Positions 1,162 to 37,042 of a stretch of 64,000 nucleotides of DNA are shown one piece after another. Source of the stretch: Nitrospinota bacterium (GTDB taxonomy: Bacteria; Nitrospinota_A; UBA7883; JACRGQ01); assembly GCA_029881495.1 (NCBI GenBank), contig JAOUMJ010000015.1, positions 1-64,000 on the forward strand, given 5' to 3'. The first letter of the stretch is position 1; the number at the start of each line of letters is the position of its first letter. A model generated the notes under the pieces. It was not told the DNA's origin. It did no database searches and saw only the letters and a list, made by a program, of their open reading frames with translations. Made by a program: the position numbers and the translations under genes.

Positions 1162-1490
1162 TCTCTTTTTTATGTATAGTCTTTGTTCTTAAAGCTGGCT
1201 GGACATCTCTGTATCCCCGCCTTCGCGGGGATTACGCGCCATTATAGAGGGGGTTTTAATTTTCCTGGTGTAACGAAATTGTTTGGTAACTTTTAAATTT
1301 CAAGTAGCACGCTTGTCATAAGTACGGTTTTCTGCCAATTTGCAAAGCGTGGATATTCACTGCTAATACTTATAGTAATTATGCTTAGAGATGATATACA
1401 AGGGAAGTAATACTTTGCGTCCTGCGGACGCACCACAGACTGAAGTCTGTGCTACCGAAGAATTGAGATCCGAAAATCTGCTGGAGAGAT
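1162..1490. other. gene-free stretch downstream of the toxin gene
   Basis: There is no gene here. It contains an 8-bp perfect hairpin, atccccgc-cttc-gcggggat (1213-1232), of the kind found in abundant dispersed REP-like elements; it has no T-run, so I do not call it a terminator. An AT-rich segment (about 1250-1400) shows no structure I recognise. The outer part of direct-repeat copy 2 begins at 1416. Confidence 0.5.
1213..1232. repeat. REP-like GC hairpin
   Basis: A perfect 8-bp inverted repeat with a CTTC loop. Its form, a CCCCGC arm, short loop and GCGGGG arm next to a tacg-type flank, is typical of dispersed palindromic units in many proteobacterial genomes. It could also slow transcription leaving the toxin gene. 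Confidence 0.5.
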
Positions 1491-1530
1491 CTAACCCAAC
1501 GTGATGATGGTGGCCCCTTCGCCACCCTGC
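1416..1530. repeat. 115-bp direct repeat, copy 2 (overlaps the mutS2 3' end)
   Basis: Partner of 352-466. Positions 1491-1530 are the true 3' end of mutS2 on the minus strand, and 1416-1490 are the flank downstream of it with the two hairpins at 1417-1431 and 1434-1451. Lying just past the mutS2 stop, the hairpins may also serve as its transcription end, although no clear T-tract follows them. Confidence 0.9.
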
Positions 1531-3851
1531 GCGGGGGCGGCGGGTGAGAACGATCTTACATAAGATGAGCTTTTCAAGTACTCCTCTATCTTCCCTTTCA
1601 GCGGCCCGCGGCCATGGACGATGCGAACGGTCTCGCTTCCGGCAAGAAGGTGCTTATCGAAAAACTGTTCCATCTGCGTAAGCGACTCTTCGAACGTAAG
1701 GCCGAGGAGCAACAGCTCATACGGCAGATATTCTTCCGATTCATCGACGTGGATCTTCGTCTCTCTCTTTTTCTTCTCGGGCGGGAGTGCGCCTTCCTTT
1801 AAACCGACGACATCGGAGGCGGCAAGGGTCATCTTTATTCCGCCGGACTGAACTTCGACCTTCCCCCCTTCGGCTTTCTTTACGAGTTGGGCCCTTCGGT
1901 CGAGCGGTATTATCCAGACGTTCCCCCCGGCGGGAACATCCTCAAGCGGTATAGATTCCGGCGTTCTGCTCTCCCTTACGATGACGTTCTCCATCTCTTT
2001 CAGCTTTGAGGAGGTCTTCCTTTTGTCCTTCAGCTCCGCCTCCTCCGCTTCGTCTATCATCGCTGAGAGTTTCGTTTTCGCTTTCCTTACTTCGTCTTTT
2101 AACAGCCTTCGCTTTTCGTCTTCGAACGCCCTGGCGTTCCGGTTAGACTCCTCAAGATTGGCGGCGAGCTCCTTTTCAATCCTTTCCGATTCAGCGCGAC
2201 TCCGCTCGTACTCTTCTATGGTTCTGTCGAGCTTGTCCGCCTTCTCCTGAAGCGCCTGAAGCGCGGACTGGTAGATATCCTGCGTGGAATCGAGCATCGA
2301 CTTGGCGCGTTCAATTATCTCTGGCGGGAGTCCGATGCTAGCGGCGACAGCGAGCGGATAGCTGACGCCGGGATGCCCCTTTTCAAGTTTGTATGTAGGT
2401 TTCCCCTCCTGGCTGAAACCCATCGCGCCGTTTACCATCTCCGCGCTCTCCTGCGCCGCTATCTTCAGGTCGGGTAGGTGGGTGGATACGAATACCTTGC
2501 ATCCGATGCCGATGAAGTGTTCGAGCACCGAGAGGGCGAGCGCCGACGCCTGTCGCGGGTCGGTGCCGTTCAGTATCTCGTCGATGATTATCCAGTCCCC
2601 CCGCTGAACGCCGAGGGCCGCTTCCTTTATACCGTTCAACTGCGCGGAGAATGTGGATTCCCCCTCTTCGACCGACTGCTCGTCGCCGACCATCGCGAAG
2701 AGGTTCTTCGTGAACGGGAAGGTTGTCCCTTCTCCGCATGAAGGGAATATTCCGCACGAGGCGAAGACGACGGAAAGGCCTGCGGATTTGAGTAGCACCG
2801 TTTTGCCGCCAGCGTTCGGCCCGGAGATGACGAGCGCCATCTCGTTCTTTGCCATCTCCACGCTGTTGGCGCGGGGATTCTCGCCGCGGAATACCATCAT
2901 CGGATGGGTTATCTCCCTCAATATTATCGAGCCGTCATCGGAGAAGAGCGGTCTCTTCCCCTTGATCCTTATGGAGAACTGCGCCTTGGCGGAGATCGCG
3001 TCGATGCGCCCCATCACGAGATAATTTCTCTCTATCTCGTCATGGTTGTCTTTCAACTGCTGCGCCGCGAGACGAAGGAGACGGTATATTTCCACCTCCC
3101 TTTCGCTTAACGCTTCCTGCAGGGAGTTGTTCTCCCTTATTAGTTCCTGCGGTTCCATGAACGCGGTTTTATCCGACGCCGAAATTCCATGTATTATTCC
3201 GGGGAAGATGTTTTTGTACTCCGCCTTTATCGGGAGGACTATTCTGTCGTTCCTTATGGTGACGTATGTATCCTGGAGTATGTCGACTATCTCCTGCTTT
3301 TTCAGGAAGGAGTCCGCTTTTTCCCTGATATGTTTTTTAAGGGAGTTTATCCGTTCCTCGATTTCAATGAGCGCCGCGCTCGCGGTCGGCTTTACCTTGC
3401 CGTCGTCGCCGAAGGTGGCGTCGAAGAAACCGGCTGTCTCTTCCAGCGGGTTCAGCTCCCCGATGATCTTCATGATCACGCCGTTCTTGAGTGCGGGATC
3501 CGAATGGAAACCGTTCAGGAGTTTAAGCTGTCGCCAGAATGAGATTATTTTTTGTATATCGTCCGGCTCCGGGAGGAGGCCGCGCGATGTTTTCTTGAGA
3601 AGCGAAGCGGGATTTTCCACCGGGGAGGGGAATATGTTTATGCCGGAATTGAATATCTCTCTTAATTCGCCTGTTTCGTCGAGAAGGGTTTCCGCTTCGT
3701 TCCTTGTTTTGGCCGGCTTGAGCGAACGGCAGATATCAGCTCCGGTTTCCGTTTTGCAAAACGAAGCGACCCTCTCGCGAACGTCGTCGAACTCAAGAGC
3801 GCGCGCGGAACGGGCGAAGATACCTTTTTCCCTGACTGATAATGAGTTCAC
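1491..3851 (-). CDS. mutS2: MutS2 family ATPase/endonuclease
   Basis: 786 residues, normal for MutS2. The N-terminal core and lever region is followed by the ATPase with Walker A G-P-N-A-G-G-K-T near residue 345 and the I-I-I-D-E Walker B. A long charged coiled coil (about 510-620) precedes a C-terminal Smr domain. MutS2 dimers act on branched DNA to limit recombination or rescue collided ribosomes, depending on lineage. The start is GTG and overlaps the stop of the upstream 56-codon gene as GTGA. One oddity is the Smr LDLRG motif, which reads E-L-L-L-L-G, while H-G-R-G-P-L-K-G is intact. Loss of the Asp/Arg suggests altered or absent Smr nuclease activity. The gene is last in the infB-peptide-mutS2 run, and its tail lies in a direct repeat. 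Confidence 0.95.
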   Translation of the reverse strand: MNSLSVREKGIFARSARALEFDDVRERVASFCKTETGADICRSLKPAKTRNEAETLLDETGELREIFNSGINIFPSPVENPASLLKKTSRGLLPEPDDIQKIISFWRQLKLLNGFHSDPALKNGVIMKIIGELNPLEETAGFFDATFGDDGKVKPTASAALIEIEERINSLKKHIREKADSFLKKQEIVDILQDTYVTIRNDRIVLPIKAEYKNIFPGIIHGISASDKTAFMEPQELIRENNSLQEALSEREVEIYRLLRLAAQQLKDNHDEIERNYLVMGRIDAISAKAQFSIRIKGKRPLFSDDGSIILREITHPMMVFRGENPRANSVEMAKNEMALVISGPNAGGKTVLLKSAGLSVVFASCGIFPSCGEGTTFPFTKNLFAMVGDEQSVEEGESTFSAQLNGIKEAALGVQRGDWIIIDEILNGTDPRQASALALSVLEHFIGIGCKVFVSTHLPDLKIAAQESAEMVNGAMGFSQEGKPTYKLEKGHPGVSYPLAVAASIGLPPEIIERAKSMLDSTQDIYQSALQALQEKADKLDRTIEEYERSRAESERIEKELAANLEESNRNARAFEDEKRRLLKDEVRKAKTKLSAMIDEAEEAELKDKRKTSSKLKEMENVIVRESRTPESIPLEDVPAGGNVWIIPLDRRAQLVKKAEGGKVEVQSGGIKMTLAASDVVGLKEGALPPEKKKRETKIHVDESEEYLPYELLLLGLTFEESLTQMEQFFDKHLLAGSETVRIVHGRGPLKGKIEEYLKSSSYVRSFSPAAPAQGGEGATIITLG

Positions 3852-4018
3852 TTTGATGATTCGGGGTTTTCAGGCTTTTGTGCCGGATCGCCGTTCGTCC
3901 CTTTTTTTTTGAGACGCTCGGCGGTTTGTCCGTATGCGATGTAGTTAAAAAAGATCGTCAGCTTCACGGCGAGATATATCCCGGCTATCAGGACCGGAAG
4001 CATCCAGGCGCCGTTCAC
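3848..4018 (-). CDS. small single-span membrane protein, 56 aa, unknown
   Basis: I found this gene by translating the gap between infB and mutS2. It starts at GTG six bases after the infB stop and ends in TGA within GTGA, overlapping the mutS2 start by 4 bp. The product begins M-N-G-A-W-M-L-P-V-L-I-A-G-I-Y-L-A-V, a hydrophobic helix of about 23 residues continuing to F-F-N-Y-I-A. A basic patch, E-R-L-K-K-K-G, and a hydrophilic Pro-rich tail follow. Expected topology is one membrane span with a cytoplasmic tail. Tight packing between two co-directional genes and stop/start coupling argue that it is translated. I recognise no family. No clear ribosome binding site precedes it, so it may depend on ribosomes finishing infB. 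Confidence 0.7.
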   Translation of the reverse strand: MNGAWMLPVLIAGIYLAVKLTIFFNYIAYGQTAERLKKKGTNGDPAQKPENPESSK

Positions 4019-4024
4019 TCAAGC

Positions 4025-6337
4025 CTACAGTACCGGGGCGACTTCTTCCTTATGGAAGGTTTCAATCTCGTCCCCGACTTTGATGTCGTTGAATTTGTCT
4101 ATTCCGATGCCGCATTCAAAGCCGTTTTTGACTTCCTTCGCGTCGTCCTTGAACCGCCTGAGAGACGAGATTATCCCTGTGTGGATGACAACTCCGTCCC
4201 TGATGATCCGGCATTCCGCGTTTCTTTTCATGACGCCGGAGACAACCATGCAACCGGCTATCGTACCTATCTTCGAGGCCTTGAACACGTCCCTTATTTC
4301 CGCCTTGCCAAGAACTACTTCCACAAATTTCGGCTTCATCATGCCTTTTACGGATGCTTCCACATCTCCGGTGATCTCGTAAATTATGGTGTACATCCTG
4401 ATCTCAACCCCGGTTTTATCGGCAAGGTCCTTTGCCTTTTCGGTTGGGCGGATGTTGAACCCTATGATGATAGCGTCCGACGCGTCGGCGAGCGATACGT
4501 CGGACTCGGTTACCGCGCCGACGCCGCTGTGTATGACGTGTATCTTCACTTCGGTGAATTCAAGTTTTCCAAGAAGTTCCTTTACACCTTCCACGGAGCC
4601 TTGGGTGTCAGCCTTTACTACCAGCTTAAGTTCCAGCGTTTCCCCTTCGGAAACCATCTCAACGATGTTTTCGAGGCGAACATGCTTTTTATCCAGTCTT
4701 TTTTCGCGGAGCGCGTCCTCCCTTGTCTGCGCAATCTGCCTTGCGCGCCTTTCGTTTTCAACGACGGTGATGACTTCGCCCGGATCGCAGATATCGTTCG
4801 CGCCGAGAAGTTCAAGCGGTGTTGAAGGGCCGGCGGAGTTTATTTTCTGCCCGCTGTCGTTTATCATCGCGCGTATCTTGCCGTGTGTATTCCCCATGAC
4901 GAACGGATCGCCTATCTTCATCGTGCCGGAGGTGATAATGATGGAGTGTACCGGGCCGCGTGTTTTATCGAGTTTTGATTCGATGACCACAGCGTGTCCG
5001 TTCGCGTCTGGTTCCGCCCTCAATTCAAGCACCTCGGCCTGGAGGAGGATCATTTCAAGAAGAGTATCTACACCCGTACCTGCTTTTGCCGAGACGTTGC
5101 AGAAGATGTTCGTTCCGCCCCAGTCTTCAGGAACGAGGCCGTATTTGGTCAGTTCCTGTTTTACCTTTTCCGGCTGAGCGCCAGGTTTGTCTATCTTATT
5201 TACAGCGACGATTATGTTTACGCCAGCCGCTTTTGCGTGGTTGATAGCTTCAACGGTTTGCGGCATCACGCCGTCATCCGCCGCGACGACGAGGACGACC
5301 ATGTCGGTAACCTGCGCGCCTCGTGCGCGGAGGGCAGTGAAAGCTTCATGGCCGGGAGTATCCAGAAAGGTTATCTGTTTGCCAGAAACGTTGATGCTGT
5401 ACGCGCCTATGTGCTGTGTGATTCCGCCCGCTTCTCCGGATGCAACGGACGTTTTCCTTATGGTGTCGAGAAGCGAGGTCTTTCCATGGTCGACATGCCC
5501 CATGACCGTTACGACAGGAGGACGTATCGGGAGGTGAGAGGTGTCTGCCGCCTCCTTTTTTACAACTTCAGTTTCTTCGACAGTTTTTACCTTGATGGTA
5601 TAGCCAAGTTCCTTTGCGATGTCCTGGGCAAGATCGACGCCAAGCGTCTGGTTCACCGTGACAGCGGTTCCTTTCAGGAAGAGTGTTTTGATGATCTCGT
5701 TTACAGATAGGTGCAGCTTGTCCGCGAACTCCTTCACCGTAATAGCCTCGTCGATAACTATCTGCCGGGCCTCTTTCTCCTTTTCCGCCTTTTCTTCCTC
5801 TGCAATGAGCCTTTCAAGCTCACGCATTTCTTCAGACTCTTTCTTTCTCGCTTTAAGATCTTCGACAACCTTTTTCTTGGCGTCTTTTATCTTTTTTCGC
5901 TCATTTTCAGCCGCCTGCCGTTTTTCTTCTTCATCCTTTTTTCTGGTAGCGTCGGAAACCGGTTTTTCTTCGGCTTTTGGCGGAGCTTTGACTTCGACAG
6001 GTTTTACTGCCGCCTCCACCTTTGCGGGCTTTTTGGCCTCGACCGCCTTGGCGGCAGGTTTTTCCTCAGGTTTCTTAATGTCTGTCTCTTCCGCGGCCTT
6101 TGCCGGTTTCGAGGACTTGGCCGCCGCTTTTTTGGCAGTTTTCTTTGCAGCGGTTTTCGCAGCCGGTTTTTTCAGATTTTCCGGAAGTTTTTTGCCAAAT
6201 GTGCCGGCAATTTTCGAAGCTGTTTCGTCGTCTATAGCCGATGCGGCTACCTTATCCTCTATTCCGAGTTTTTTAAGCTCGGCGATAACATCCGCGCTTT
6301 TTAATCCCAGTTCTTTAGCTAGTGCACTGACTCTCAT
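4025..6337 (-). CDS. infB: translation initiation factor IF-2
   Basis: 770 residues. IF2_N module 1 (residues 1-48) is followed by a long Lys/Ala/Glu-rich linker (about 50-190), a second IF2_N module (about 197-248) and the GTPase domain. G1 is G-H-V-D-H-G-K-T at 280-287, G3 D-T-P-G-H at 326-330 and G4 N-K-I-D at 380-383. The beta-barrel and C-terminal fMet-tRNA-binding domains complete the protein. It places initiator tRNA on the 30S subunit and promotes subunit joining. The usual neighbours nusA and rbfA are not adjacent here; instead a small membrane-protein gene and mutS2 follow. The ATG start gives the exact IF2_N beginning, [10 protein letters not shown]. Confidence 0.98.
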
Positions 6338-9327: not shown

Positions 9328-10147
9328 CTGATAACCCCTCATTTTGAATTGTCTCTTCCACCCACTTTATCCTATTAGAGAATGCCGGATGTAATTTAAT
9401 TAGAGATGATACCTTATTGCTCTCGGCTTTTTCCATTCGGCGGAAAAGGTTTGCCAGCGCTTCGGGATTATAGCCAAGTGAAGCGGCGAGCATAATGCCC
9501 AGCGTATCGGCCTCCTGTTCATCTTTTTGGGCGTAACCATTCTGGAAGAGGACATTCATGGCATTATCCACGGCCTGCGTAAACGCGACTGTCATGGTTT
9601 CACCGCCCCCGCCGATGAGTTTGCCGAGACTTGCTTCGCTGCTACCGCTTTTACCTCTTATATTAAGTTCCTTGACGATATGTTTTTGAGATATGTGAGT
9701 GATCTCGTGCGCGATCGTGGCTGCCAGTTCCGCCTCGTTCTCCATAGCTTCAATCGCCCCTTTTGTGATGAATATATATCCTCCTGGAGCGGCAAAGGCG
9801 TTTACTGTCGGAGTATCCAGAATTCCGACCTTGAACTGTAATTCCGGCCTGTTTGAATTTTCTGCCAATGACCGGGCTATCAGATTGCAGTAACGGGTAA
9901 GGTTGTCGTTTTTATACAGGGAGTAGCGGCCAATAATTCTCGCGGCAACTTCCCGGCCGAAGACGATTTCCGCCTTTATGTCGTCTTCGTTTGTCCAATC
10001 TATCTGATTGTGCGCCCTTGCACGCGCCCTTGCGGAGTTTTGCGCGTCGGCGATGGCGGAGTAGGAGATGGAAACAGCCATGAAAATAAGGCTAACTGTA
10101 AGGGTGCTTGTTCCGATTATCAGGTTTTTTTTCTTCATCCGATTCAA
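9275..10147 (-). CDS. M48-family metalloprotease (BepA/LoiP-like)
   Basis: 290 residues with an N-terminal hydrophobic signal or anchor. The zinc motif A-H-E-I-T-H near residue 146 lies within T-I-A-H-E-I-T-H-I-S-Q-K-H, and the third ligand region is Q-E-A-D-T-L-G. These define M48 peptidases. Periplasmic M48 enzymes such as BepA degrade misassembled outer-membrane proteins, and a neighbouring beta-barrel gene would suit that role (inference). The ATG overlaps the stop of the SH3-domain gene as ATGA, indicating translational coupling. The 3' end overlaps the barrel gene. There is no TPR extension like that of BepA, so a short-form protease is more likely. Confidence 0.88.
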   Translation of the reverse strand: MNRMKKKNLIIGTSTLTVSLIFMAVSISYSAIADAQNSARARARAHNQIDWTNEDDIKAEIVFGREVAARIIGRYSLYKNDNLTRYCNLIARSLAENSNRPELQFKVGILDTPTVNAFAAPGGYIFITKGAIEAMENEAELAATIAHEITHISQKHIVKELNIRGKSGSSEASLGKLIGGGGETMTVAFTQAVDNAMNVLFQNGYAQKDEQEADTLGIMLAASLGYNPEALANLFRRMEKAESNKVSSLIKLHPAFSNRIKWVEETIQNEGLSGGEFRTESARFNRFKKG

Positions 10148-10623
10148 TTCCCGGTTTTGTTGAATTCCTCAACCTCTTCATCGGAGATCTTATCGGTGAA
10201 ATTTTCAAGCCTGTTAAGAGTGTTGTAATCGGCCTTTTCCTGATCGCTCCGTCTTTTTCTGTCCTTTTCGGAAAGCCCCCTCGCCGCCGCGGCTGATGTA
10301 ACAGCGGAAGCCCTTCTTCTCGATTTGTCTTCGAGATTTTCCGTTGCCTCGGTGATAATGGAAACTCTTTCCATAGGTTCATTTCTGGATACATTCAGCT
10401 GGTTGATCCAGCCGGTCATGTCGCCTGTTTTTACCTGGTACCATCCTTTCCCCTTTTCGATCACCTCAAGCTGGTCCCCTCTTTTAAGGGTGCCTGTAGT
10501 TTCGGCCTTGAATGAAGGGGAGTTCATGATTTTTGCGGATTTGCTTTGCACATAAAGAGTATCGGCTGCGGATGCAATATATGAGGATAGAGAGATAATA
10601 GATAGTATCAGTAGCCGTTTCAT
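10144..10623 (-). CDS. secreted SH3-domain protein
   Basis: 159 residues from the internal ATG at 10623, chosen because an agga site precedes it and a signal peptide, K-R-L-L-I-L-S-I-I ending A-S-A-A-D, starts there. A longer frame reaching 10665 lacks this logic. The mature N-terminus is a bacterial SH3-like domain: L-Y-V-Q-S-K-S-A-K-I-M, then G-T-L-K-R-G-D-Q-L-E-V, then W-Y-Q-V-K and G-W-I-N. Such domains bind peptidoglycan or proteins in the periplasm. The C-terminal half is charged and Arg/Glu-rich and looks disordered. It is coupled to the M48 protease gene by a 4-bp overlap, so the two probably act together. Confidence 0.8.
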   Translation of the reverse strand: MKRLLILSIISLSSYIASAADTLYVQSKSAKIMNSPSFKAETTGTLKRGDQLEVIEKGKGWYQVKTGDMTGWINQLNVSRNEPMERVSIITEATENLEDKSRRRASAVTSAAAARGLSEKDRKRRSDQEKADYNTLNRLENFTDKISDEEVEEFNKTGN

Positions 10624-10695
10624 TTCCTGGTCTCCAACATAAAATAATCCTCTCGACAGCTCCACTTATGTCGATTTAAAAATTGTCAACGTCCT

Positions 10696-12810
10696 CTATT
10701 TTCCCTCTTCCATACCTTCGCATCTCCTGATGAAAACTTCCCTTATAGGCGATTCTTTCATGGATCGGTAAATTTCGAGAGCTTTTTTCATCTCTCCATT
10801 CGAATAGAGCTCATACGCCGTATCCGAGGTTTTTACCAATTCCCAAGCCCTTTCAAGAGATTTCTCATCATCGAAACCTATTGCTTCATATATGCCTATC
10901 ATATCACGCTTTCCCCGAACTTGTACCTTGTCCAGAATTCTGCACGGCAGGACATCCTTTATTTCGCGATATGTGAATTCCGAGATGATTATCGGAACAG
11001 GGTATTGTTTATTCAGGGATTCCAGCCTTGAGGCGAGGTTTATCGTGTCGCCGATGACGGTATAGCTGAGCTTTTTTTCGGAACCGATGTTCCCGAGTAT
11101 TGCCGGTCCGGTATTGATTCCTATTCCTTGCATTACCGTGAAATCGACCCCCATTTCCTTGATTTCAGCGTTGACGGCATCCATTCTGGCGGCCATTTCA
11201 ATGGCGCTTCTCACAGCCATTTCAGCGTGGTTTTTAATCTTTAGCGGCGCTCCCCAAAACGCCATGATAGCGTCGCCGATAAATTTATCGACGGTACCCT
11301 GATTTTTCAGAATGACATCGCACATCCTCGATAAATAGGAATTCAGCATTTTAATAACCATTTCGGGCGATGTTTTATCGGAGAAGGCGGTGAATCCGCG
11401 GATGTCCGTAAACATTATTGTTAGATTGACCTCTTCTCCCTTGCCAAGCGCGGCGAAATCCTCGATATTCTCCGCCATCTGGTTCAGCACTTCTGGTGAA
11501 ACATACTGGGAGAACATCTTTTTAACGCGCAATTTTTCCCGTCCTTCCGTTGCGGCAAGAAAGGCAAAGGCAGTGGCGCCTGAAAAAACTATCGACCCCG
11601 CAGGCGGCATCAGCTCCATCAGGAAATTTCCGTTAAAAGCGTAGATGTAGGCACCAACCCATCCGCCAAGGCAGGCAAGCGGCAATGCAAGTTTATCCCT
11701 GAATTTTCCGAGATAGAGGACTGCAAGAGTACAGATGATCGAGAAAATAATGATAAATACGAAAGTTGTTTTCCGGTCAACGTAGGAGAAAAAATCGTTA
11801 TCGATGTAATTGCTGGCAAGCGACGCATGAAGGTAGACCCCCGGAGTGAGAGGGGAGATGGCTGTCGGTTTAAGGTCTTCAACTCCGACGGCGCTAGCGC
11901 CTATGTAGACGATCTTGTCCCTGAACTCATCCGGATGCACGAGCAGGGATTCAATGTCGCCGCTTTTTATCATCTGTAGCGAGGAAAAAAGTCCGCTTAT
12001 AGAGAAGGGGTTTATTTTTCCGTAAGGATTGATGATTATTTTTCCTTCCCTGTTTGTCGGGATATTTTTATCTCCTATCCTTATCCGTTTCTTTTCAATT
12101 TCTATCTTTTCGCCACTCAATAGAGGCGCGATACCGGCAACGGGAAAATATTTTCCATGATATTCCCTGAAAGGCCTTGTCTGTCTGTATATTCCGTCTT
12201 CGTCCGAAGTGAACTCAACAACCCCTATCCCCTTGGAGGCCATTGCCAGTTCGTAGATAGGGGTGTAATAATTATTTGCTTCCCCGTGATGCTCGAAATT
12301 TATTGATACTTCAGGGAGGGAGAAGTTATCGGCAAACTCCTTCGGGAGCGGCCTGTTGAGCAGGGTTTTGTTCTTTTCATCTTCCTTGTCAACCAGCAGC
12401 TGCATTGCATGGAATACGTTTCCCGAGTCGTATGTCGCAAGGACAAGCGCCCTGTCGTTTGGGCCTATCTCCCCGTCATCAAGCGTCTCCTGATTTTCGG
12501 CGAACATGATATCGAAAAATACCGCTCGCGGCTCACCCATCGCAAGGAACTCAAGAAGGTCGGAGTAGACCGCTCTTGGCCACGGCCACCTCCCGACAAT
12601 GGAATTAAGAGCCTGAAGTGACGCTTCATCTATCAGGATCACAACCACGTCCTGTGTGGTTTCCAGGTTGCCCCTCAACTGCCTGGCAGTTGCGTCAAAT
12701 GCAATATGTTCCAGACGTATAAAGGAGTCCGATACATATAGGAAGACGGCAAGCAAGGTATTGCCAATGACAAGGAGTATGGAGACCTTTCTTTTTCTTT
12801 TATCTTTCAT
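10696..12810 (-). CDS. CHASE2-domain adenylate cyclase
   Basis: 704 residues. An N-terminal transmembrane helix is followed by an extracytoplasmic CHASE2 sensor (about 35-340, with I-D-E-A-S-L near its start and W-P-W-P-R). Two or three membrane helices (about 345-430) and a class III cyclase domain (about 455-640) come next. Metal-binding aspartates lie in F-T-D-I-R-G-F-T near residue 468 and in G-D-A-I-M-A-F near 510. V-D-K-F and V-I-G-D-T-I-N-L-A-S-R give the Lys/Asp pair expected for ATP rather than GTP. A short C-terminal extension follows. It should make cAMP in response to a periplasmic or membrane signal that is not known. No ribosome binding site is evident before the ATG. Confidence 0.92.
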   Translation of the reverse strand: MKDKRKRKVSILLVIGNTLLAVFLYVSDSFIRLEHIAFDATARQLRGNLETTQDVVVILIDEASLQALNSIVGRWPWPRAVYSDLLEFLAMGEPRAVFFDIMFAENQETLDDGEIGPNDRALVLATYDSGNVFHAMQLLVDKEDEKNKTLLNRPLPKEFADNFSLPEVSINFEHHGEANNYYTPIYELAMASKGIGVVEFTSDEDGIYRQTRPFREYHGKYFPVAGIAPLLSGEKIEIEKKRIRIGDKNIPTNREGKIIINPYGKINPFSISGLFSSLQMIKSGDIESLLVHPDEFRDKIVYIGASAVGVEDLKPTAISPLTPGVYLHASLASNYIDNDFFSYVDRKTTFVFIIIFSIICTLAVLYLGKFRDKLALPLACLGGWVGAYIYAFNGNFLMELMPPAGSIVFSGATAFAFLAATEGREKLRVKKMFSQYVSPEVLNQMAENIEDFAALGKGEEVNLTIMFTDIRGFTAFSDKTSPEMVIKMLNSYLSRMCDVILKNQGTVDKFIGDAIMAFWGAPLKIKNHAEMAVRSAIEMAARMDAVNAEIKEMGVDFTVMQGIGINTGPAILGNIGSEKKLSYTVIGDTINLASRLESLNKQYPVPIIISEFTYREIKDVLPCRILDKVQVRGKRDMIGIYEAIGFDDEKSLERAWELVKTSDTAYELYSNGEMKKALEIYRSMKESPIREVFIRRCEGMEEGK

Positions 12811-30333: not shown

Positions 30334-31806
30334 CTAAGCGAACAGGAGTTGTTCCAGTTTCTTCATCAGTGCCCGGTTCTCTTTTTCGGGCGGGACGTTG
30401 AGCGGAGGTTTCGGCTTTCCAGCTCCCTTGAAAAGTTTTACCGTCTCCCCCCACGATACGATGTTACGGCAACCGGCTATCACCGCACCGGAGGAGTTTA
30501 TGCTTATAAAGCTCCTCTCCGGGTATCGGGCGATTATCTCTTCGAAAGTTTTTCTGTATCCGTTCAGGTGCGGATGCGTGAATCCCTTTTCGCCGGAGTA
30601 GAACTCGGTCTCAAGCCTGTCATGCTGAAGCGTGATGCTGTCGTAACAGCTTCCGTCCATCATGGAGCCGGGGTTGGTTGAATCCATATCGGAGAAGGTG
30701 GACCTGTTGTATGGCGCGCCTTTGGGGAACCCGAAATCCTGCCCGACGAAACCTATCGGATCCGCTCCGCTTTTCGCTAGAAGGTCGAGGGCGAAACAGG
30801 AGACGGAGCCGCCCGCGTCGACAACGCCCCTCTCTTCAAGGAGCGTTTCCGCAGGCTGGAATATCGTGTGCCCCTTTTTCAGGAGGAGCATCCGGGAGTT
30901 TTTGAATCTCTCGACCACCTGGGGATGCGTTGTCGGGGAAAAAAAGAGAGGCGCTCCCCCTCTCGCCCCGGCGAAGTGGGAGAATGATATCACCTGGGGG
31001 TCGACCGAGATGACCGCGTCGTAACCGATGCCGTTTTCGCGCAGCGCTTCGGCGGCGGTGTCGACGGCGAGGATGAAACTGCTGTTCTGCACTTTGTCGA
31101 GGAACGAAAGGTTCCTGTCGAGAGAAGGCCCCGCCCCCACGAGGATGGCCGGGTATCCTTTTAGCGCGCCGAAGATGGACGATGCGCCGGGGGAGGATGC
31201 TATCGCTTCGAGGTTTGCCTTTATGTTCTCCCTCTCCACGCCGGAGAAGCGCGCCTTGAATCTTTTTTCGCCGAGGAGGGAATCGAATATATCTTTTACC
31301 CTGTCGAAGCCTTCCGGTATGCAGCGAAAAGAGGGGAGATGGATTGCGACCTCCCAGTTCTCTCCGCCATCTTTTATCGCCTCAATGATGCTTTTCGTAA
31401 GTTCCTGTTCGCTCTCCGCGGTTACCAGTTCGAACCGGCTGTCGGAAAGGAGCGTTGATAGATCTCTATGGTTCAGCGCCGCGGAGAGGATATCCCTGCT
31501 CGCTTCGATTGCGACTATCCTCTTCAGTTCCGGGCGGGTTGAGACGACCGATTCAAGATGGTACCCGAGGCCGAAGCCGTAAACGAGGAGGTTATCTTTT
31601 CCGTCAAGCGAGAGAGAGTTTGCGAATTTATCCCCTTCTCTTTTCGGGTCGACCTTTCCGGCGAGAAGAAGGCCGTTGATAGCTACTGTTACTTCGCCAT
31701 GTTTTGTCTTTTCAGGTTTCGGAGGCGCGGGGAGGTTGCGCAGTGGAGCCGAAACGCGGCTGTGGCGCTTGTCGATTATCTCAAGATTCTTGTTAAGAAA
31801 GTTCAT
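30334..31806 (-). CDS. DUF115 (MptE-like/motility accessory factor family) protein
   Basis: 490 residues from ATG 31806, chosen for its aggag site five bases upstream and the M-N-F-L-N-K start; seven extra codons upstream are possible. The core of DUF115 lies at about 225-400: P-A-I-L-V-G-A-G-P-S-L-D-R-N, then L-A-V-D-T-A-A-E-A-L and V-I-S-V-D-P-Q. Relatives include archaeal 6-hydroxymethylpterin diphosphokinase MptE and flagellin-glycosylation Maf proteins. G-F-G-L-G-Y-H in the N-terminal half is also family-typical. No flagellar or sialic-acid genes are near, so the substrate stays open. Confidence 0.83.
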   Translation of the reverse strand: MNFLNKNLEIIDKRHSRVSAPLRNLPAPPKPEKTKHGEVTVAINGLLLAGKVDPKREGDKFANSLSLDGKDNLLVYGFGLGYHLESVVSTRPELKRIVAIEASRDILSAALNHRDLSTLLSDSRFELVTAESEQELTKSIIEAIKDGGENWEVAIHLPSFRCIPEGFDRVKDIFDSLLGEKRFKARFSGVERENIKANLEAIASSPGASSIFGALKGYPAILVGAGPSLDRNLSFLDKVQNSSFILAVDTAAEALRENGIGYDAVISVDPQVISFSHFAGARGGAPLFFSPTTHPQVVERFKNSRMLLLKKGHTIFQPAETLLEERGVVDAGGSVSCFALDLLAKSGADPIGFVGQDFGFPKGAPYNRSTFSDMDSTNPGSMMDGSCYDSITLQHDRLETEFYSGEKGFTHPHLNGYRKTFEEIIARYPERSFISINSSGAVIAGCRNIVSWGETVKLFKGAGKPKPPLNVPPEKENRALMKKLEQLLFA

Positions 31807-32041
31807 TGAAGCTCCTGATTTTGCCATGCCGAGTGGTGCCAGTCAAATAGAGAGGCTATTGTCTTTCCGGACAGGGAGGAGTTTCTCGATGGACAGGTGC
31901 GGAATTGCGATCCCTTTTGAACACCGCATTATCCTTGCCATCGACTGGTAATAATATGCTAATAGTGTTATGGTATTTTTATTCATCATGTCGAGCGCTT
32001 TTTTGTTTGTCGGGAGTCTGTTTTTGCAGGAGGGCCGGTTC

Positions 32042-33409
32042 ATGAAGTTGGTATCTGGATTAGCTTTAATTTGCGGAGTTTTGCTATTTGGTTGCAGTGG
32101 AGATATGACGGCTTCCACGAACGATGCAGGCACGAGCGTAGAATTCAAGACTATCATCAGTTCGGATTTCCTTGGTCAAAGCGAGAAAACCGAGAAAAGA
32201 TTTGATGTGTTACGCAGTCAGAGTACCCTTGACTATATATACCCTGAATATGATCCAGAAGGGAAATATCCGATACCCGCAGTCGATTTTGAAAAAGATA
32301 TGGTAATTCTGGCAAGCCTGGGCGTTAAAGGTTCGGGAGGTTACAGCATCGCTGTTACCGGAATTACTAACAAGAAAGAGTCTGTGCTGGTTGATGTCGA
32401 ATCGGAGTATCCGGGAAATTGTTATACAACAGCGATAATTACGCTCCCTTTTACCTTTGTGATTATGCCCAGGTTCGATAAGAGCGTTGATTTTCAGGAG
32501 AAGGTGACACTCCGCGATTGTAGCGGTACATCAACGGATGCAGGGACGGTTATTGATGTTGGCACCAGCGTTCCATTTACCACGAATGTAAACTCGGATT
32601 ACCTCAGCACAAGTGATAGAACTGCCAGGGTTCATATGTTGATAAACGACCAGGCTACTTTTGAAGAAGAGTGGGCCGCCTATGATCCGGAAGGGAGAAA
32701 TACCCTTCCAGAAGTCGATTTCAATACAAATTCGGTAATTGTAATCAATATGGGCATTCAGGGGAGTACCGACTATGGCATGACTATTACCGGGATAACT
32801 GCGGTGGAGAGCTATCTGCTGGTTGACGTTGTATCCGATCGTCCAGGATATTTTTGCGGGGCAGGAGCCGCGATGACACGACCGTACAGCTTTGTGACCA
32901 TCCCAAAGAGTTTTGATCCGATCATTGTTCAGGATGCAATAATCCATAAACCACCATGTGCTGAAGGACCGATCAAGAGTGAAACCAGTGTCAATCCTGA
33001 TAAAGGATCTAGTGTTACATTCATGAACCTTGTAAGTTCGGACTATCTCGGTCAAAGCGATAGGACAGCCAGAGTGTATATGGAGATAAATGACCAAACC
33101 ACTTTTGAAGAAGAGTGGGTCGCCTACGATCCGGAAGGGAGAAATCCGATTCCCACCATTGATTTTGAAAAAGATATGGTAATTGTGATCAATATGGGTC
33201 TTCAATATTCAGGTGGTTACATAATTGGCGTTGCCGGGGTAACCGAAATGGAGAACTACGTAATGATCGAAACAAAATCTGAGATTCCTGGTAAAGATTG
33301 TTTGGTAACGAATGCGCTTACACGACCATATACATTTGTGGCAATTCCAAAGACAAATAAAGAAATTGTGTTCCAAGATAATATAAAAACCACATCTTGT
33401 ATCGAATAG
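32042..33409 (+). CDS. lipoprotein with three tandem PrcB-like domains
   Basis: 455 residues from ATG 32042 (aggagg nine bases upstream). The signal peptide ends in a lipobox, L-L-F-G-C, so the mature protein is lipid-anchored. Three homologous units follow (about residues 30-160, 173-308 and 323-455). Each has (S)-S-D-(Y/F)-L, a Y-D-P-E-G-(R/K) turn, the P-x-V/I-D-F-x-x-(D/N)-x-V-I strand, a G-(G/D)-Y-x-I/M-x-(V/I)-(T/A)-G-(I/V)-T core and a P-(Y/F)-(S/T)-F-V-x-(I/M)-P end with conserved cysteines. The core resembles the PrcB C-terminal domain, found beside proteases. Units 2 and 3 are close at DNA level, so the last duplication is recent. Base composition is more AT-rich than the flanking genes. 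Confidence 0.8.
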   Translation: MKLVSGLALICGVLLFGCSGDMTASTNDAGTSVEFKTIISSDFLGQSEKTEKRFDVLRSQSTLDYIYPEYDPEGKYPIPAVDFEKDMVILASLGVKGSGGYSIAVTGITNKKESVLVDVESEYPGNCYTTAIITLPFTFVIMPRFDKSVDFQEKVTLRDCSGTSTDAGTVIDVGTSVPFTTNVNSDYLSTSDRTARVHMLINDQATFEEEWAAYDPEGRNTLPEVDFNTNSVIVINMGIQGSTDYGMTITGITAVESYLLVDVVSDRPGYFCGAGAAMTRPYSFVTIPKSFDPIIVQDAIIHKPPCAEGPIKSETSVNPDKGSSVTFMNLVSSDYLGQSDRTARVYMEINDQTTFEEEWVAYDPEGRNPIPTIDFEKDMVIVINMGLQYSGGYIIGVAGVTEMENYVMIETKSEIPGKDCLVTNALTRPYTFVAIPKTNKEIVFQDNIKTTSCIE

Positions 33410-33572: not shown

Positions 33573-33989
33573 TTGTCGCCAGCGGAAATCGATTTTAAAA
33601 ACCTTTCGGCTCTCGTAGTTGACGATTACGAAGCTATAAGAAGCAAGCTTACCTCAGCGCTGAACGCGCTTGGAATAAAGACAACCGAGGCGGTAAACGG
33701 CGTAAACGCGCTGGAGGTGCTTGCCAAGGAGAGCTTCGATATGATGTTCACCGACATAGTCATGCCGGAAATGGATGGCTTTGAGCTCTGCGAAGAGGTG
33801 AGGCGCAAGCCGGAACTTCGGAAAATGCCGGTGGTTGTCACCTCCACCCATGCCGACACGAACTACATCATAAAGGCGCTGAGGCTTGGCGCGGACGACT
33901 ACCTGGCAAAGCCGATCGATAAGGAGCTTCTTCAAAAGGTTGTCCAGCGGATAATGCTCCCTTCAATGGATGAGGAAGAGAATGGCTGA
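33573..33989 (+). CDS. single-domain response regulator (CheY-like)
   Basis: 138 residues beginning at TTG; no ATG or GTG lies at a suitable place. A complete receiver domain has the acidic pair D17-D18, phosphorylation site D61 in F-T-D-I-V-M-P-E-M-D-G, the switch threonine in V-T-S-T-H and lysine in L-A-K-P-I-D. There is no output domain, so it acts by protein contact or in a phosphorelay. Its stop overlaps the start of the CheA-like kinase by 8 bp, making that kinase the likely phosphodonor. The ribosome binding site is weak (gtagg, 12 bases away). Confidence 0.9.
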   Translation: MSPAEIDFKNLSALVVDDYEAIRSKLTSALNALGIKTTEAVNGVNALEVLAKESFDMMFTDIVMPEMDGFELCEEVRRKPELRKMPVVVTSTHADTNYIIKALRLGADDYLAKPIDKELLQKVVQRIMLPSMDEEENG

Positions 33990-36123
33990 ATCGGTGTCGT
34001 CCGAAAACCTTCTGGTAAAGGTCGAAAATCTCGACAAGCTTCTTACCCTTGCGGGGGAGGTCATCATCTCCTCAAGCAACCTTGGTAACACATACAAAAA
34101 TCTTCAGGCGCTCTACGACAGCAAGAAGCCTGTGAACCGGGACACGGTGGAGGTGATGGGGGATCTCTCTGCCGCAACCGCCGACATATCATCCGAGCTT
34201 CATCATCTGGTTCAGGCTATCAGGACGGTAAGCCTCAAGGATCTCAGTTTCCGCACAAGAAGGCTGGTGCGCGATATCTCCCGTAAAACGGGGAAGAGGG
34301 TCAATTTCGAATTTGAAGGGGAGGAGACCACAGTAGACAAAACTATAGTGGAAAATCTTTACGATCCGATCTCCCACCAGCTGAGGAACGCGATCGACCA
34401 CGGGATAGAGGATTCCGAAGAGAGGAAAAAGAAAGGGAAGCCGGAAGAGGGGCTTGTTGTTATCCGCGTGTCGAACAGTGAAAACGAGACCATCATCGAC
34501 ATAGAGGATGACGGCGCCGGTATCGATCTTGAGAGGTTGCGCAAAAAAGCGATCGAACTTGGAAGGGTAAACGAATCGGATAATTTTACCGAGGGGATGG
34601 CGCTCGACATTATGTGCATGGCGGGGGTATCTACAGCCGAAGTCGTCTCGGAAGTATCGGGGCGCGGGGTCGGGATGGACGTGGTAAGGAGCATGCTGTC
34701 AAATCTTGGCGGTTCCATATCCTTTAAAACGGAAAAGGACAAGGGCTCCACGTTCACGTTTCGGGTGCCATTGGTATCGGCGGTCAATATTGTCGATGCG
34801 CTGGTGATAAGGAGCGGGAAACATATGTTTGCGTTCCCCATATCGACCGTAGCCGCGAGCATGTCGGTGCCGAAAAAACAGATAAACTCGACACTCGGCA
34901 AGGGGGAGATGGTGCATTACCTGGACAAGCTCCTGCCGCTGCACAATTTAAATAAGCTGCTGGACGGAACGGTAGTCGAGCACGAAGGTGAAAACCTCCC
35001 GGTGCTTGTGCTTGAGCACAAGAAAGAGTGGATAGCGCTTTCAATCTCGGAATTTCTCTCCCCGCAGAAACTTGTCATCATTCCGTTCAACGGCGCGCTG
35101 GAAGTCGAAGGGATCTCCGGCACCACCATCCTCGGAGGGAGGAGTCTCGGATTTATAGTTGATGTGAATTCGCTCATCGCCAGGGCTACGGGAAAGGGTA
35201 GGCGTCACCACCTGAGCCTTGCGGAAGCGGAATCCGCCGCCGGGAAGGCGCTGAAGAAAGGGAGGCTGGAAACCCAGGCTGTAAAAGTTGAAAAACACGC
35301 TGAGGTTGCGGATGAAGCGGCTATGGCGGACAAGAGGCCGGAAGCGGCGGCAAGACGCGAGATCGAAATACAGGAAGAGCCGCAGATAGAGAACGTAACG
35401 GAATTCATTCTTGAGATAGAAAAACTGGTGCCTCAGCTGAACGAATCCATTTTCGCTCTGGAGAAAAACCCCGGCGATATGGAAACCATCAACCTTGCTT
35501 TCAGACTGTTCCATACGATAAAGGGAAACCTCATAATGATCGGGTATTCAAAGGGCGGACAGACAGTTCACGCCGTCGAATCGGTTCTCGATTACGCGAG
35601 GGGGAAGAAGATAGATATCTCTCCGGAGATGATGGATATCCTTATGGACGGCGTTTCATATATTGAGGATCTTGTCAGGAAGGGTAAGGCCGGAGCCTGG
35701 CAGGATGAAGTATCGCAACATGTTTTGGAGGCGAGTGCGCGGGTATTGCCGGAGCAGAAGGTCGAGAAGAAGGAGGTCGGGGATGTCGTTACGGCGGAGA
35801 TAGGGCTTTCGCACGAATCGTCCTACCGCATGAACAACTACCGCAAGCTCAAGACCCCGTTTTACAACTGCTATGTGGAATTCGATTCCGGTAGACAGCC
35901 GCCGTTCCTCGTCGCGTGCCTTATCTATAAGCGCATTTCAGAAGTGGGCGACGTGCTAGGAACGGTTCCACCTCTTGAAGATATTGAGAATGGAATTATG
36001 GAAGGGAAGTTTAAACTGCTGTTTGCTTCCTCCAGAGAGCCGGAAAAGGCCGAAAAATTTCTCTACTCGGTACTTACCCGGCATTACGGGGCCACGATTG
36101 TAAAAATAAACAGGTTCGGATAG
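33982..36123 (+). CDS. CheA-like histidine kinase with rearranged domain order
   Basis: 713 residues from ATG 33982 (gagg site six bases upstream; ATG 33970 is an alternative). It begins directly with a dimerisation domain (about 7-95), then the HATPase (about 100-270; N-box R-N-A-I-D-H-G-I, D-D-G-A-G-I-D, S-G-R-G-V-G-M-D) and a CheW-like domain (about 270-410). A charged linker leads to an Hpt domain with the phosphorylatable histidine H511 in L-F-H-T-I-K-G-N. The C-terminal ~100 residues (F-Y-N-C-Y-V-E-F onward) look like a P2/CheA-associated alpha-beta domain. Classical CheA carries Hpt first, so the order here is P3-P4-P5-P1-P2-like. No chemoreceptor, CheW, CheR or CheB gene is near. Confidence 0.9.
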   Translation: MAESVSSENLLVKVENLDKLLTLAGEVIISSSNLGNTYKNLQALYDSKKPVNRDTVEVMGDLSAATADISSELHHLVQAIRTVSLKDLSFRTRRLVRDISRKTGKRVNFEFEGEETTVDKTIVENLYDPISHQLRNAIDHGIEDSEERKKKGKPEEGLVVIRVSNSENETIIDIEDDGAGIDLERLRKKAIELGRVNESDNFTEGMALDIMCMAGVSTAEVVSEVSGRGVGMDVVRSMLSNLGGSISFKTEKDKGSTFTFRVPLVSAVNIVDALVIRSGKHMFAFPISTVAASMSVPKKQINSTLGKGEMVHYLDKLLPLHNLNKLLDGTVVEHEGENLPVLVLEHKKEWIALSISEFLSPQKLVIIPFNGALEVEGISGTTILGGRSLGFIVDVNSLIARATGKGRRHHLSLAEAESAAGKALKKGRLETQAVKVEKHAEVADEAAMADKRPEAAARREIEIQEEPQIENVTEFILEIEKLVPQLNESIFALEKNPGDMETINLAFRLFHTIKGNLIMIGYSKGGQTVHAVESVLDYARGKKIDISPEMMDILMDGVSYIEDLVRKGKAGAWQDEVSQHVLEASARVLPEQKVEKKEVGDVVTAEIGLSHESSYRMNNYRKLKTPFYNCYVEFDSGRQPPFLVACLIYKRISEVGDVLGTVPPLEDIENGIMEGKFKLLFASSREPEKAEKFLYSVLTRHYGATIVKINRFG

Positions 36124-36127
36124 GGAT

Positions 36128-37042
36128 ATGAAAAGCTACATTCTGGAAAACAAAAAGAACATGATCGACGCCGAGGTGAAGGAGAACCTTAAAAAGGGGA
36201 TGGAACACAAGGTTGAAGAGCTGGAACTCCCGGAGAACCATGAGGATATTTATCCCATTTTTGCTGACAAGGAGGACGGAATAATATTCATCCCTGCCAT
36301 ATGGACCGACCTTTATTGCGTGAAGATAATCAACGAAGTTGAACATCTAAAAGGGGTATTCGGAGCGGTAATCGTTGGGAAAACCCCGAAGGCTTCGGAA
36401 CTGGTGGTGGCGTTCAACGAAGGGCTTTACGCCTACCTTGAGACGCCGATGGACAAGCAGAACTTCAAGCAGACGCTTACAAGGGTCTTCGGAAAACTGA
36501 GAAAGAAATCGGGAGAGAATCTTGTGCTCGGGCGTATCAAACAGTATGAGTCGGGCCTGTCGCCCAGATCGTTTTCCCATCAGATGCACGAGAGGGACCA
36601 CCTTTTGGCGAAGGCATATATCGATGTTCTAAAGGACCGGGGGCCGCTAATGGACGGTACGGTCAAAGTGCTTCTAGTTACTGCTTCCAAGGCGCAGGAG
36701 GGGAGGCTGGAAAAATTCCTGAAGGAACTCGGCCTTAAGATCGAGTCGGTCGATTCTATGGCGGCCGCTTTGGAGAAGGCATCGGTAGGCAAGTTCGAGC
36801 TCATCATCACGGATAATATGCTCCCAGACGGCGATGCGATCACATTCGTTGACAAGCTTCGCAAACTGATGAAGAAATCGCTCCCAAGGGTAATAGTCTG
36901 GTCCTCTTCTCCCGAGAAATTCGCCAGCCTTTTGGGGCCTGAAAACCACATCGACGACGTGATACTGAAACCCGGCCCCGGCGCGGGGATCGAGGTGATC
37001 CTCCCTTCCATTGTCGCCGCGATCTATTCGCTCCATACCTGA
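36128..37042 (+). CDS. double receiver-like protein (one degenerate receiver)
   Basis: 304 residues, four bases after the kinase gene. Residues about 170-300 form a receiver domain with D-site I-I-T-D-N-M-L-P-D-G-D and lysine in V-I-L-K-P. The strand-1 acidic pair is replaced (V-L-L-V-T-A-S), so metal-dependent phosphorylation may be poor. Residues about 30-130 have a receiver-like alternation ending E-T-P-M-D-K, where P-M-D resembles the K-P-x-D of receivers, but have no recognisable phosphosite. It is likely a partner of the reordered CheA and upstream regulator, perhaps binding rather than being phosphorylated. No DNA-binding output is visible. Confidence 0.75.
   Translation: MKSYILENKKNMIDAEVKENLKKGMEHKVEELELPENHEDIYPIFADKEDGIIFIPAIWTDLYCVKIINEVEHLKGVFGAVIVGKTPKASELVVAFNEGLYAYLETPMDKQNFKQTLTRVFGKLRKKSGENLVLGRIKQYESGLSPRSFSHQMHERDHLLAKAYIDVLKDRGPLMDGTVKVLLVTASKAQEGRLEKFLKELGLKIESVDSMAAALEKASVGKFELIITDNMLPDGDAITFVDKLRKLMKKSLPRVIVWSSSPEKFASLLGPENHIDDVILKPGPGAGIEVILPSIVAAIYSLHT

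Follow-up and report, generated by a model that had tools for sequence, protein, structure and literature searches.

The kinase CheA defines bacterial chemotaxis, and P1 ahead of a P3-P4-P5 block is regarded as its standard domain order. A kinase gene in the 64,000-nucleotide stretch of Nitrospinota DNA analyzed here (the window) departs from that order and raises the question of whether it encodes a differently assembled CheA and, if so, whether such a kinase still sits in a chemoreceptor array. The gene occupies positions 33982..36123 of the + strand. Its product is 713 aa long if translation begins at the ATG at 33982 and 717 aa long if it begins at another ATG in the same frame, at 33970; the reading frame is free of interruptions from either start. 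Numbered from the ATG at 33970 (subtracting 4 gives the numbering from 33982), the Pfam matches are H-kinase_dim at residues 16-81, HATPase_c at 135-268, CheW at 277-405, Hpt at 476-564, and P2 (PF07194) at 632-700, with E-values across the five domains from 1e-4 to 1e-15. This domain search bears out the P3-P4-P5-P1-P2 architecture proposed in a preliminary description of the locus, and the coordinates and phosphorylatable histidine given there, H511, are likewise correct. The order is not, however, the reverse of classical CheA, as that description had it, but a rotation: a circular permutation in which P1-P2 has been shifted to a position after P5.

The catalytic residues of the kinase are intact. 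The P3 dimerization domain (34003..34236, +) consists of two long helices, predicted by AlphaFold at residues 18-50 and 57-85; its H-kinase_dim match (E 1.2e-4) scores 22.9 bits, slightly below the 23-bit cut-off, and reaches E 1.4e-8 in other family members. The ATP-binding domain P4 (34237..34773, +; HATPase_c E 8.9e-15) has an intact N box (H136/N140/H144), G1 box (D180-G184), and G2 box (GRGVGMD). By phmmer, residues 12-402 (from 33970) match the P3-P4-P5 portion of structurally solved CheAs, and the kinase core matches PDB CheA chains such as 3ja6 with an E-value of 1.9e-61. P5, discussed below, is followed by a disordered linker (35191..35379, +; residues 412-471, pLDDT below 50) and then by the P1 Hpt domain (35380..35745, +; Hpt E 4.5e-9), whose phosphorylatable histidine is encoded at 35512-35514 and is H511 from the ATG at 33982 or H515 from that at 33970. 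Residues 479-581 align gap-free with the N-terminal P1 of E. coli CheA, so that H515/K518/H534/E537 line up with E. coli H48/K51/H67/E70, which we take to be the functional P1 quartet. The C terminus is formed by a PF07194-type P2 response-regulator docking domain (35860..36117, +; P2 E 1.3e-9), a ferredoxin-like fold with predicted beta-alpha-beta-beta-alpha-beta order. The AlphaFold model thus recovers the P3 helices, P4, P5, linker, helical P1, and P2 in the permuted order; the single domains are mostly confident, and their mutual placement is not (mean pLDDT 77, pTM 0.42).

The same order is found in 62 distinct homologs. The P3-P4-P5 block is contiguous in every intact family member, and in every one P1-P2 lies C-terminal to P5, none having P1 N-terminal to P3 as in the classical arrangement; wherever a locus has an intact kinase, its G2 box comes before the phospho-histidine. 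Pfam finds HATPase_c, CheW, Hpt, and P2 in all 19 of the aligned family proteins and H-kinase_dim in 17, which places the permuted order far beyond chance. The tested kinase-box residues are invariant (62/62 distinct members), and the P1 quartet H/K/H/E is present wherever it could be tested (61/61). The unusual order by itself might suggest a conventional CheA altered artefactually by frameshift, misassembly, or gene fusion, and the preliminary description had named the first of these as an outcome that would undo its reading. Such an artefact can be dismissed with near certainty, given the uninterrupted frame and the recurrence of order, linker, and neighbors among these homologs in independent assemblies that include the complete Smac51 chromosome.

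To describe the distribution of the family, we combined genome collections with a scan of public genomes, whose taxa are given here by record titles. A search of 60 genomes returned full-length matches at E <1e-129, one per genome, with 59-63% identity within the family of the window's organism and 35-39% within its class, whereas conventional CheAs aligned over residues ~10-430 at most. The P1-P2 end is intact in 19 of 24 genomes of the window's phylum, and one further copy (in G004) is severed by a contig end. The public scan gave 62 loci. Of these, 17 lie in metagenome-assembled genomes (MAGs), most of which bear the titles Nitrospinota, Nitrospinales, or Nitrospirae; the other 45, Smac51 among them, come from records under the names Ca. 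Adiutrix, Deltaproteobacteria, Proteobacteria, or Planctomycetota. Many of these bins are presumably of termite-gut origin, as we read the bin names and the name Ca. Adiutrix. Elsewhere the order is rare, occurring in 1 of 361 sampled genomes of other phyla (G273, which has the full cassette described below), in 1 of 44 genomes of the phylum of G273, and in 7 of 395 of the phylum of Smac51.

When the P3-P4-P5 blocks of 25 permuted and 32 conventional CheAs were placed in a maximum-likelihood tree, the permuted proteins formed one clade (100/100 support), whose stem, 1.13 changes per site long, separates it from every conventional sequence. By this phylogeny, the permuted CheAs share a single origin, and they appear to constitute an undescribed branch, or class, of the CheA family, set apart from the 32 conventional CheAs sampled. 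Outside the family, a model of the P1-P2 end matched G295 and G187, whose proteins are classical P1-first CheAs, and G158, congeneric with G295; in G295 and G187, the match covers P1 and then P2, as in the model. Because this mutual order is common to classical CheAs, the data fit either one permutation or the joining of a liberated P1-P2 to the end of P5, and a five-domain ancestor that underwent one of these events would account for the family.

The kinase does not stand alone. It is the second gene of a conserved cassette that comprises, in order, a CheY-like receiver, the permuted CheA, and a tandem-receiver protein of ~305 aa. In the window, the stand-alone receiver (33573..33989, +; 138 aa from a TTG start; Pfam Response_reg E 4.5e-30) has D17-D18, D61, T92, and K113 intact, and the corresponding DD, D, T, and K are invariant across 15 of 15 aligned orthologs. 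The last 8 bases of this gene overlap the beginning of the kinase gene, and the third gene begins 4 bases past the kinase stop, a spacing that suggests a single operon. The coupling of kinase to receiver gene reported in the preliminary description holds at 58 of 61 loci with room for it; that description omitted the third conserved gene of the unit, the tandem-receiver frame at 36128..37042 (+; 304 aa; Response_reg E 8.3e-10), which follows the kinase at 56 of 59 loci. Its product is predicted (AlphaFold pLDDT 89.5) to comprise a degenerate N-terminal receiver fold, a helical linker, and a C-terminal receiver that keeps D229 and K281 and, in the window's lineage, has lost the acidic pair. Foldseek matches it to the receiver-receiver part of PleD and to 3luf. 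It has no output domain, and Pfam recognizes no sensory domain in it.

The exceptions to the cassette are mostly loci with a broken kinase frame or a mis-set start (L060, L061, and L067). At two of these, in MAGs titled Planctomycetaceae or Planctomycetota (L060, 6472-8729; L061, 1730-4059), the permuted CheA frame is broken by sequencing error or decay and the tandem receiver is intact. Downstream of the broken cassette of L060 lies a 598-aa open reading frame (10039-11835, +) that matches MCP signaling domains and carries a CxxCxxC motif early in its sequence; a redox-sensing cytoplasmic receptor is a possible identity for its product.

Genes for an array are not a regular part of the surroundings of the cassette, as the preliminary description had noted at the locus and as now extends across the family: the flanks of related loci contain no regular MCP, CheW, CheR, or CheB. 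Sporadic matches there are limited to an MCP ~9 kb away, the MCP downstream of the broken copy, a CheW-like frame, and a marginal CheD-like frame. On the window's contig, the sole CheW match is the permuted CheA itself, and the matches listed include no MCP or CheR. The Smac51 neighborhood offers no functional clue, its 192-aa downstream frame having no Pfam match. In the window, the cassette is directly preceded by a gene (31970-33409, +) for a 479-aa protein with three PrcB C-terminal domains (PF14343), which was not seen as a conserved neighbor. Farther upstream, on the opposite strand (30334-31827, -), lies a gene for an MptE-like protein with a weak match to a Maf-type glycosyltransferase N-terminal domain.

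The unusual domain is P5 (34786..35190, +; CheW E 1.3e-12), the most divergent part of the kinase. Where conventional CheAs are conserved, the family agrees with them at 48 of 61 positions in P4 and at 10 of 24 in P5. Among the losses are a glutamate and an arginine of the CheW fold, replaced by A296 and L318, and an otherwise invariant lysine, replaced by I371. The first two were identified by alignment to the CheW motifs VxEI and LRG, whose E and R we take to be numbered E38 and R62 in E. coli CheW, a numbering that also appears in PMC3828127. The E38-R62 salt bridge of E. coli CheW is fundamental for the function of the signaling complex and not for its assembly, and the R62A mutant retains partner binding (PMC3828127). 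The E-R pair is present in 0 of 62 permuted and 30 of 37 conventional CheAs, so that 7 of the latter lack it too, and the equivalent of K371 in 0 of 62 versus 37 of 37. Judged by the E-R pair as a sequence proxy, then, the P5 of this family does not appear fit for coupling to CheW and receptors in the manner of an array CheA. A separate variant of the pair occurs in a conventional CheA (L036 in G048, 1396-4209, -), where it is inverted to R-E, which resembles a compensatory exchange.

Taken together, we consider it probable that the cassette is a self-contained phosphotransfer module with a permuted CheA at its core, with the partner receiver as output and with probable uncoupling from arrays; our best reading of the kinase is that it is dedicated to phosphotransfer and that its coupling to chemoreceptor arrays is either absent or altered. 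In the scheme we infer, the kinase would dimerize via its N-terminal P3, and P4 would use ATP to phosphorylate H511 of P1, tethered C-terminally by the flexible linker. P1 liberated from CheA is functional, as cited in the 2023 CheA survey (PMC10782961), and this activity together with the long disordered linker makes a C-terminal tether plausible. The C-terminal P2 would then dock the partner receiver, whose D61 would take up the phosphate; this CheY-like, single-domain protein, the product of the gene directly before the kinase, would probably serve as the output by binding to a target protein. The tandem receiver, with its degenerate receivers, may be devoted to the module as a regulator, a decoy, or a sink for phosphate. 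Since P5 lacks the coupling signature and no dedicated receptors are encoded with the kinase, the latter would probably lie outside the usual chemoreceptor-array position.

This reading must be weighed against the chemotaxis repertoire of the hosts. The window's genome encodes six further CheAs, all P1-first, so the permuted protein is not its only CheA; the preliminary description had counted a separate conventional CheA against its view, yet their presence fits the permuted CheA as a separate system. Elsewhere, the same genome has ten MCP places and five CheR-domain places, and several of its other CheW matches are grouped in che-type clusters (C10 and C18). MCPs are present in all 42 carrier genomes checked, and further CheW-domain genes in all 20 checked. 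One could therefore picture an auxiliary CheA that docks into the host's arrays via P5, with receptors and CheW encoded elsewhere and a CheY-like output to flagella or pili. The retained CheW fold of P5, which may allow residual scaffold binding, and the conventional CheAs of the genomes examined are consistent with such an arrangement, and, given the MCPs, array dependence is compatible with gene content. Paralogous CheA systems can mix within one array (PMC6759762); Azospirillum reportedly has such a mixed array. Against this stand the loss of the P5 E-R pair and invariant lysine in 62 of 62 members, the lack of conserved linkage to MCP, CheW, CheR, or CheB, and the lack of a flagellar tie in genus g12, and we regard the auxiliary role as unlikely.

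The flagellar evidence comes from a few genomes. In g12, the cassette is present and FliM and FlhA were undetected in all three genomes (81-94% complete); conversely, G002 has FliM and FlhA and no cassette. A strict flagellar link is thus unsupported, and the kinase, being retained in g12, need not act on flagella. Other CheAs persist in the g12 genomes, however, so the missing flagella of this genus do not set the system apart from ordinary type IV pilus chemosensing. PilT-family matches occur across the 24 genomes, that in G014, which lacks any CheA, being a sub-threshold match only. The "non-chemotaxis" role suggested in the preliminary description would rest on the loss of the P5 coupling residues together with the retention of the kinase in g12.

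A more specific form of the phosphotransfer-module reading assigns the tandem receiver to the input: as a non-phosphorylatable or ligand-controlled pseudo-receiver on P5 or P2, it would switch the kinase in place of chemoreceptors. The tandem receiver adjoins the kinase in 56 of 59 loci, a co-occurrence that suggests a physical partner, and its acidic pocket is degenerate in the window's lineage. Yet the lack of any sensory domain recognized by Pfam speaks against such an input, and the C-terminal receiver, having kept Asp and Lys, may simply accept phosphate; on balance, we find this role improbable. Bolder still, and offered tentatively as a possible if rather doubtful extension of the module, is the idea that this CheA class has left arrays altogether: a permuted, receptor-independent, pseudo-receiver-controlled kinase whose own CheY relays the signal to a target other than flagella, with deep inheritance or spread between phyla explaining its distribution.

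Compared with the classical five-domain CheAs (E. coli, Thermotoga maritima; F-class), the permuted proteins share all five domains, the kinase boxes, the P1 quartet, a PF07194-type P2, and the mutual order of P1 and P2. They differ in that P1-P2 follows P5 rather than preceding P3, in a P5 without the E-R pair and invariant lysine, in the absence of linked MCP, CheW, CheR, and CheB genes, and in forming a separate clade. Split CheAs such as CheA3/CheA4 of Rhodobacter sphaeroides, with Hpt in a separate gene, likewise indicate that P3-P4-P5 is separable and works with a P1 that is not N-terminally attached (PMC10782961); in the permuted family, however, P1-P2 is fused C-terminally within one polypeptide and belongs to a conserved three-gene cassette. 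CheAs with a C-terminal receiver (the CheAY, ACF, and Tfp classes) also carry extra domains after P5 (PMC10782961), whereas in the permuted proteins P5 is followed by a phosphotransfer and docking pair and the receivers are separate genes. The tandem receiver, for its part, resembles PleD-type proteins, its top Foldseek matches, in having two receiver folds in a row, but has no GGDEF or other output domain and a degenerate acidic pocket.

The 2023 survey of 13,673 CheAs records P2 loss, duplications, fusions, added receivers, multiple Hpt/CheW domains, and bipartite CheAs, and its introduction mentions that the configuration of Hpt and P2 was not always the same in a 2010 study; the portion of its text consulted describes no P1-P2 behind P5 (PMC10782961). 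Searches of open-licence papers for CheA domain order, for CheA in Nitrospinota, and for chemotaxis in Adiutrix likewise yielded no account of the P3-P4-P5-P1-P2 architecture. A conserved permuted class of single origin with an altered P5 and private receivers amounts to a natural experiment on which connections of CheA matter, and it makes testable whether CheA can function without chemoreceptors. With P1 attached at the opposite end, it should also serve as a naturally occurring construct for work on P1 access and trans-phosphorylation.

Other unusual CheA-related proteins were found among the same genomes. Contig C10 of the window's genome (G000) encodes a 323-aa direct fusion of Hpt and CheW without P3 or P4 (L041, 5737-6708, -), which adjoins a conventional CheA and a likely CheB and resembles the P1-P5 part of Rhodobacter CheA3; a 317-aa frame with an Hpt-type histidine motif occupies the same position in G012 (L150, 9266-10219), from another family of the class. 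On contig C34 of G000, a 665-aa CheA (L040, 5985-7982, -) has no recognizable G2 box and an HATPase_c match below the cut-off, and is possibly a pseudokinase.
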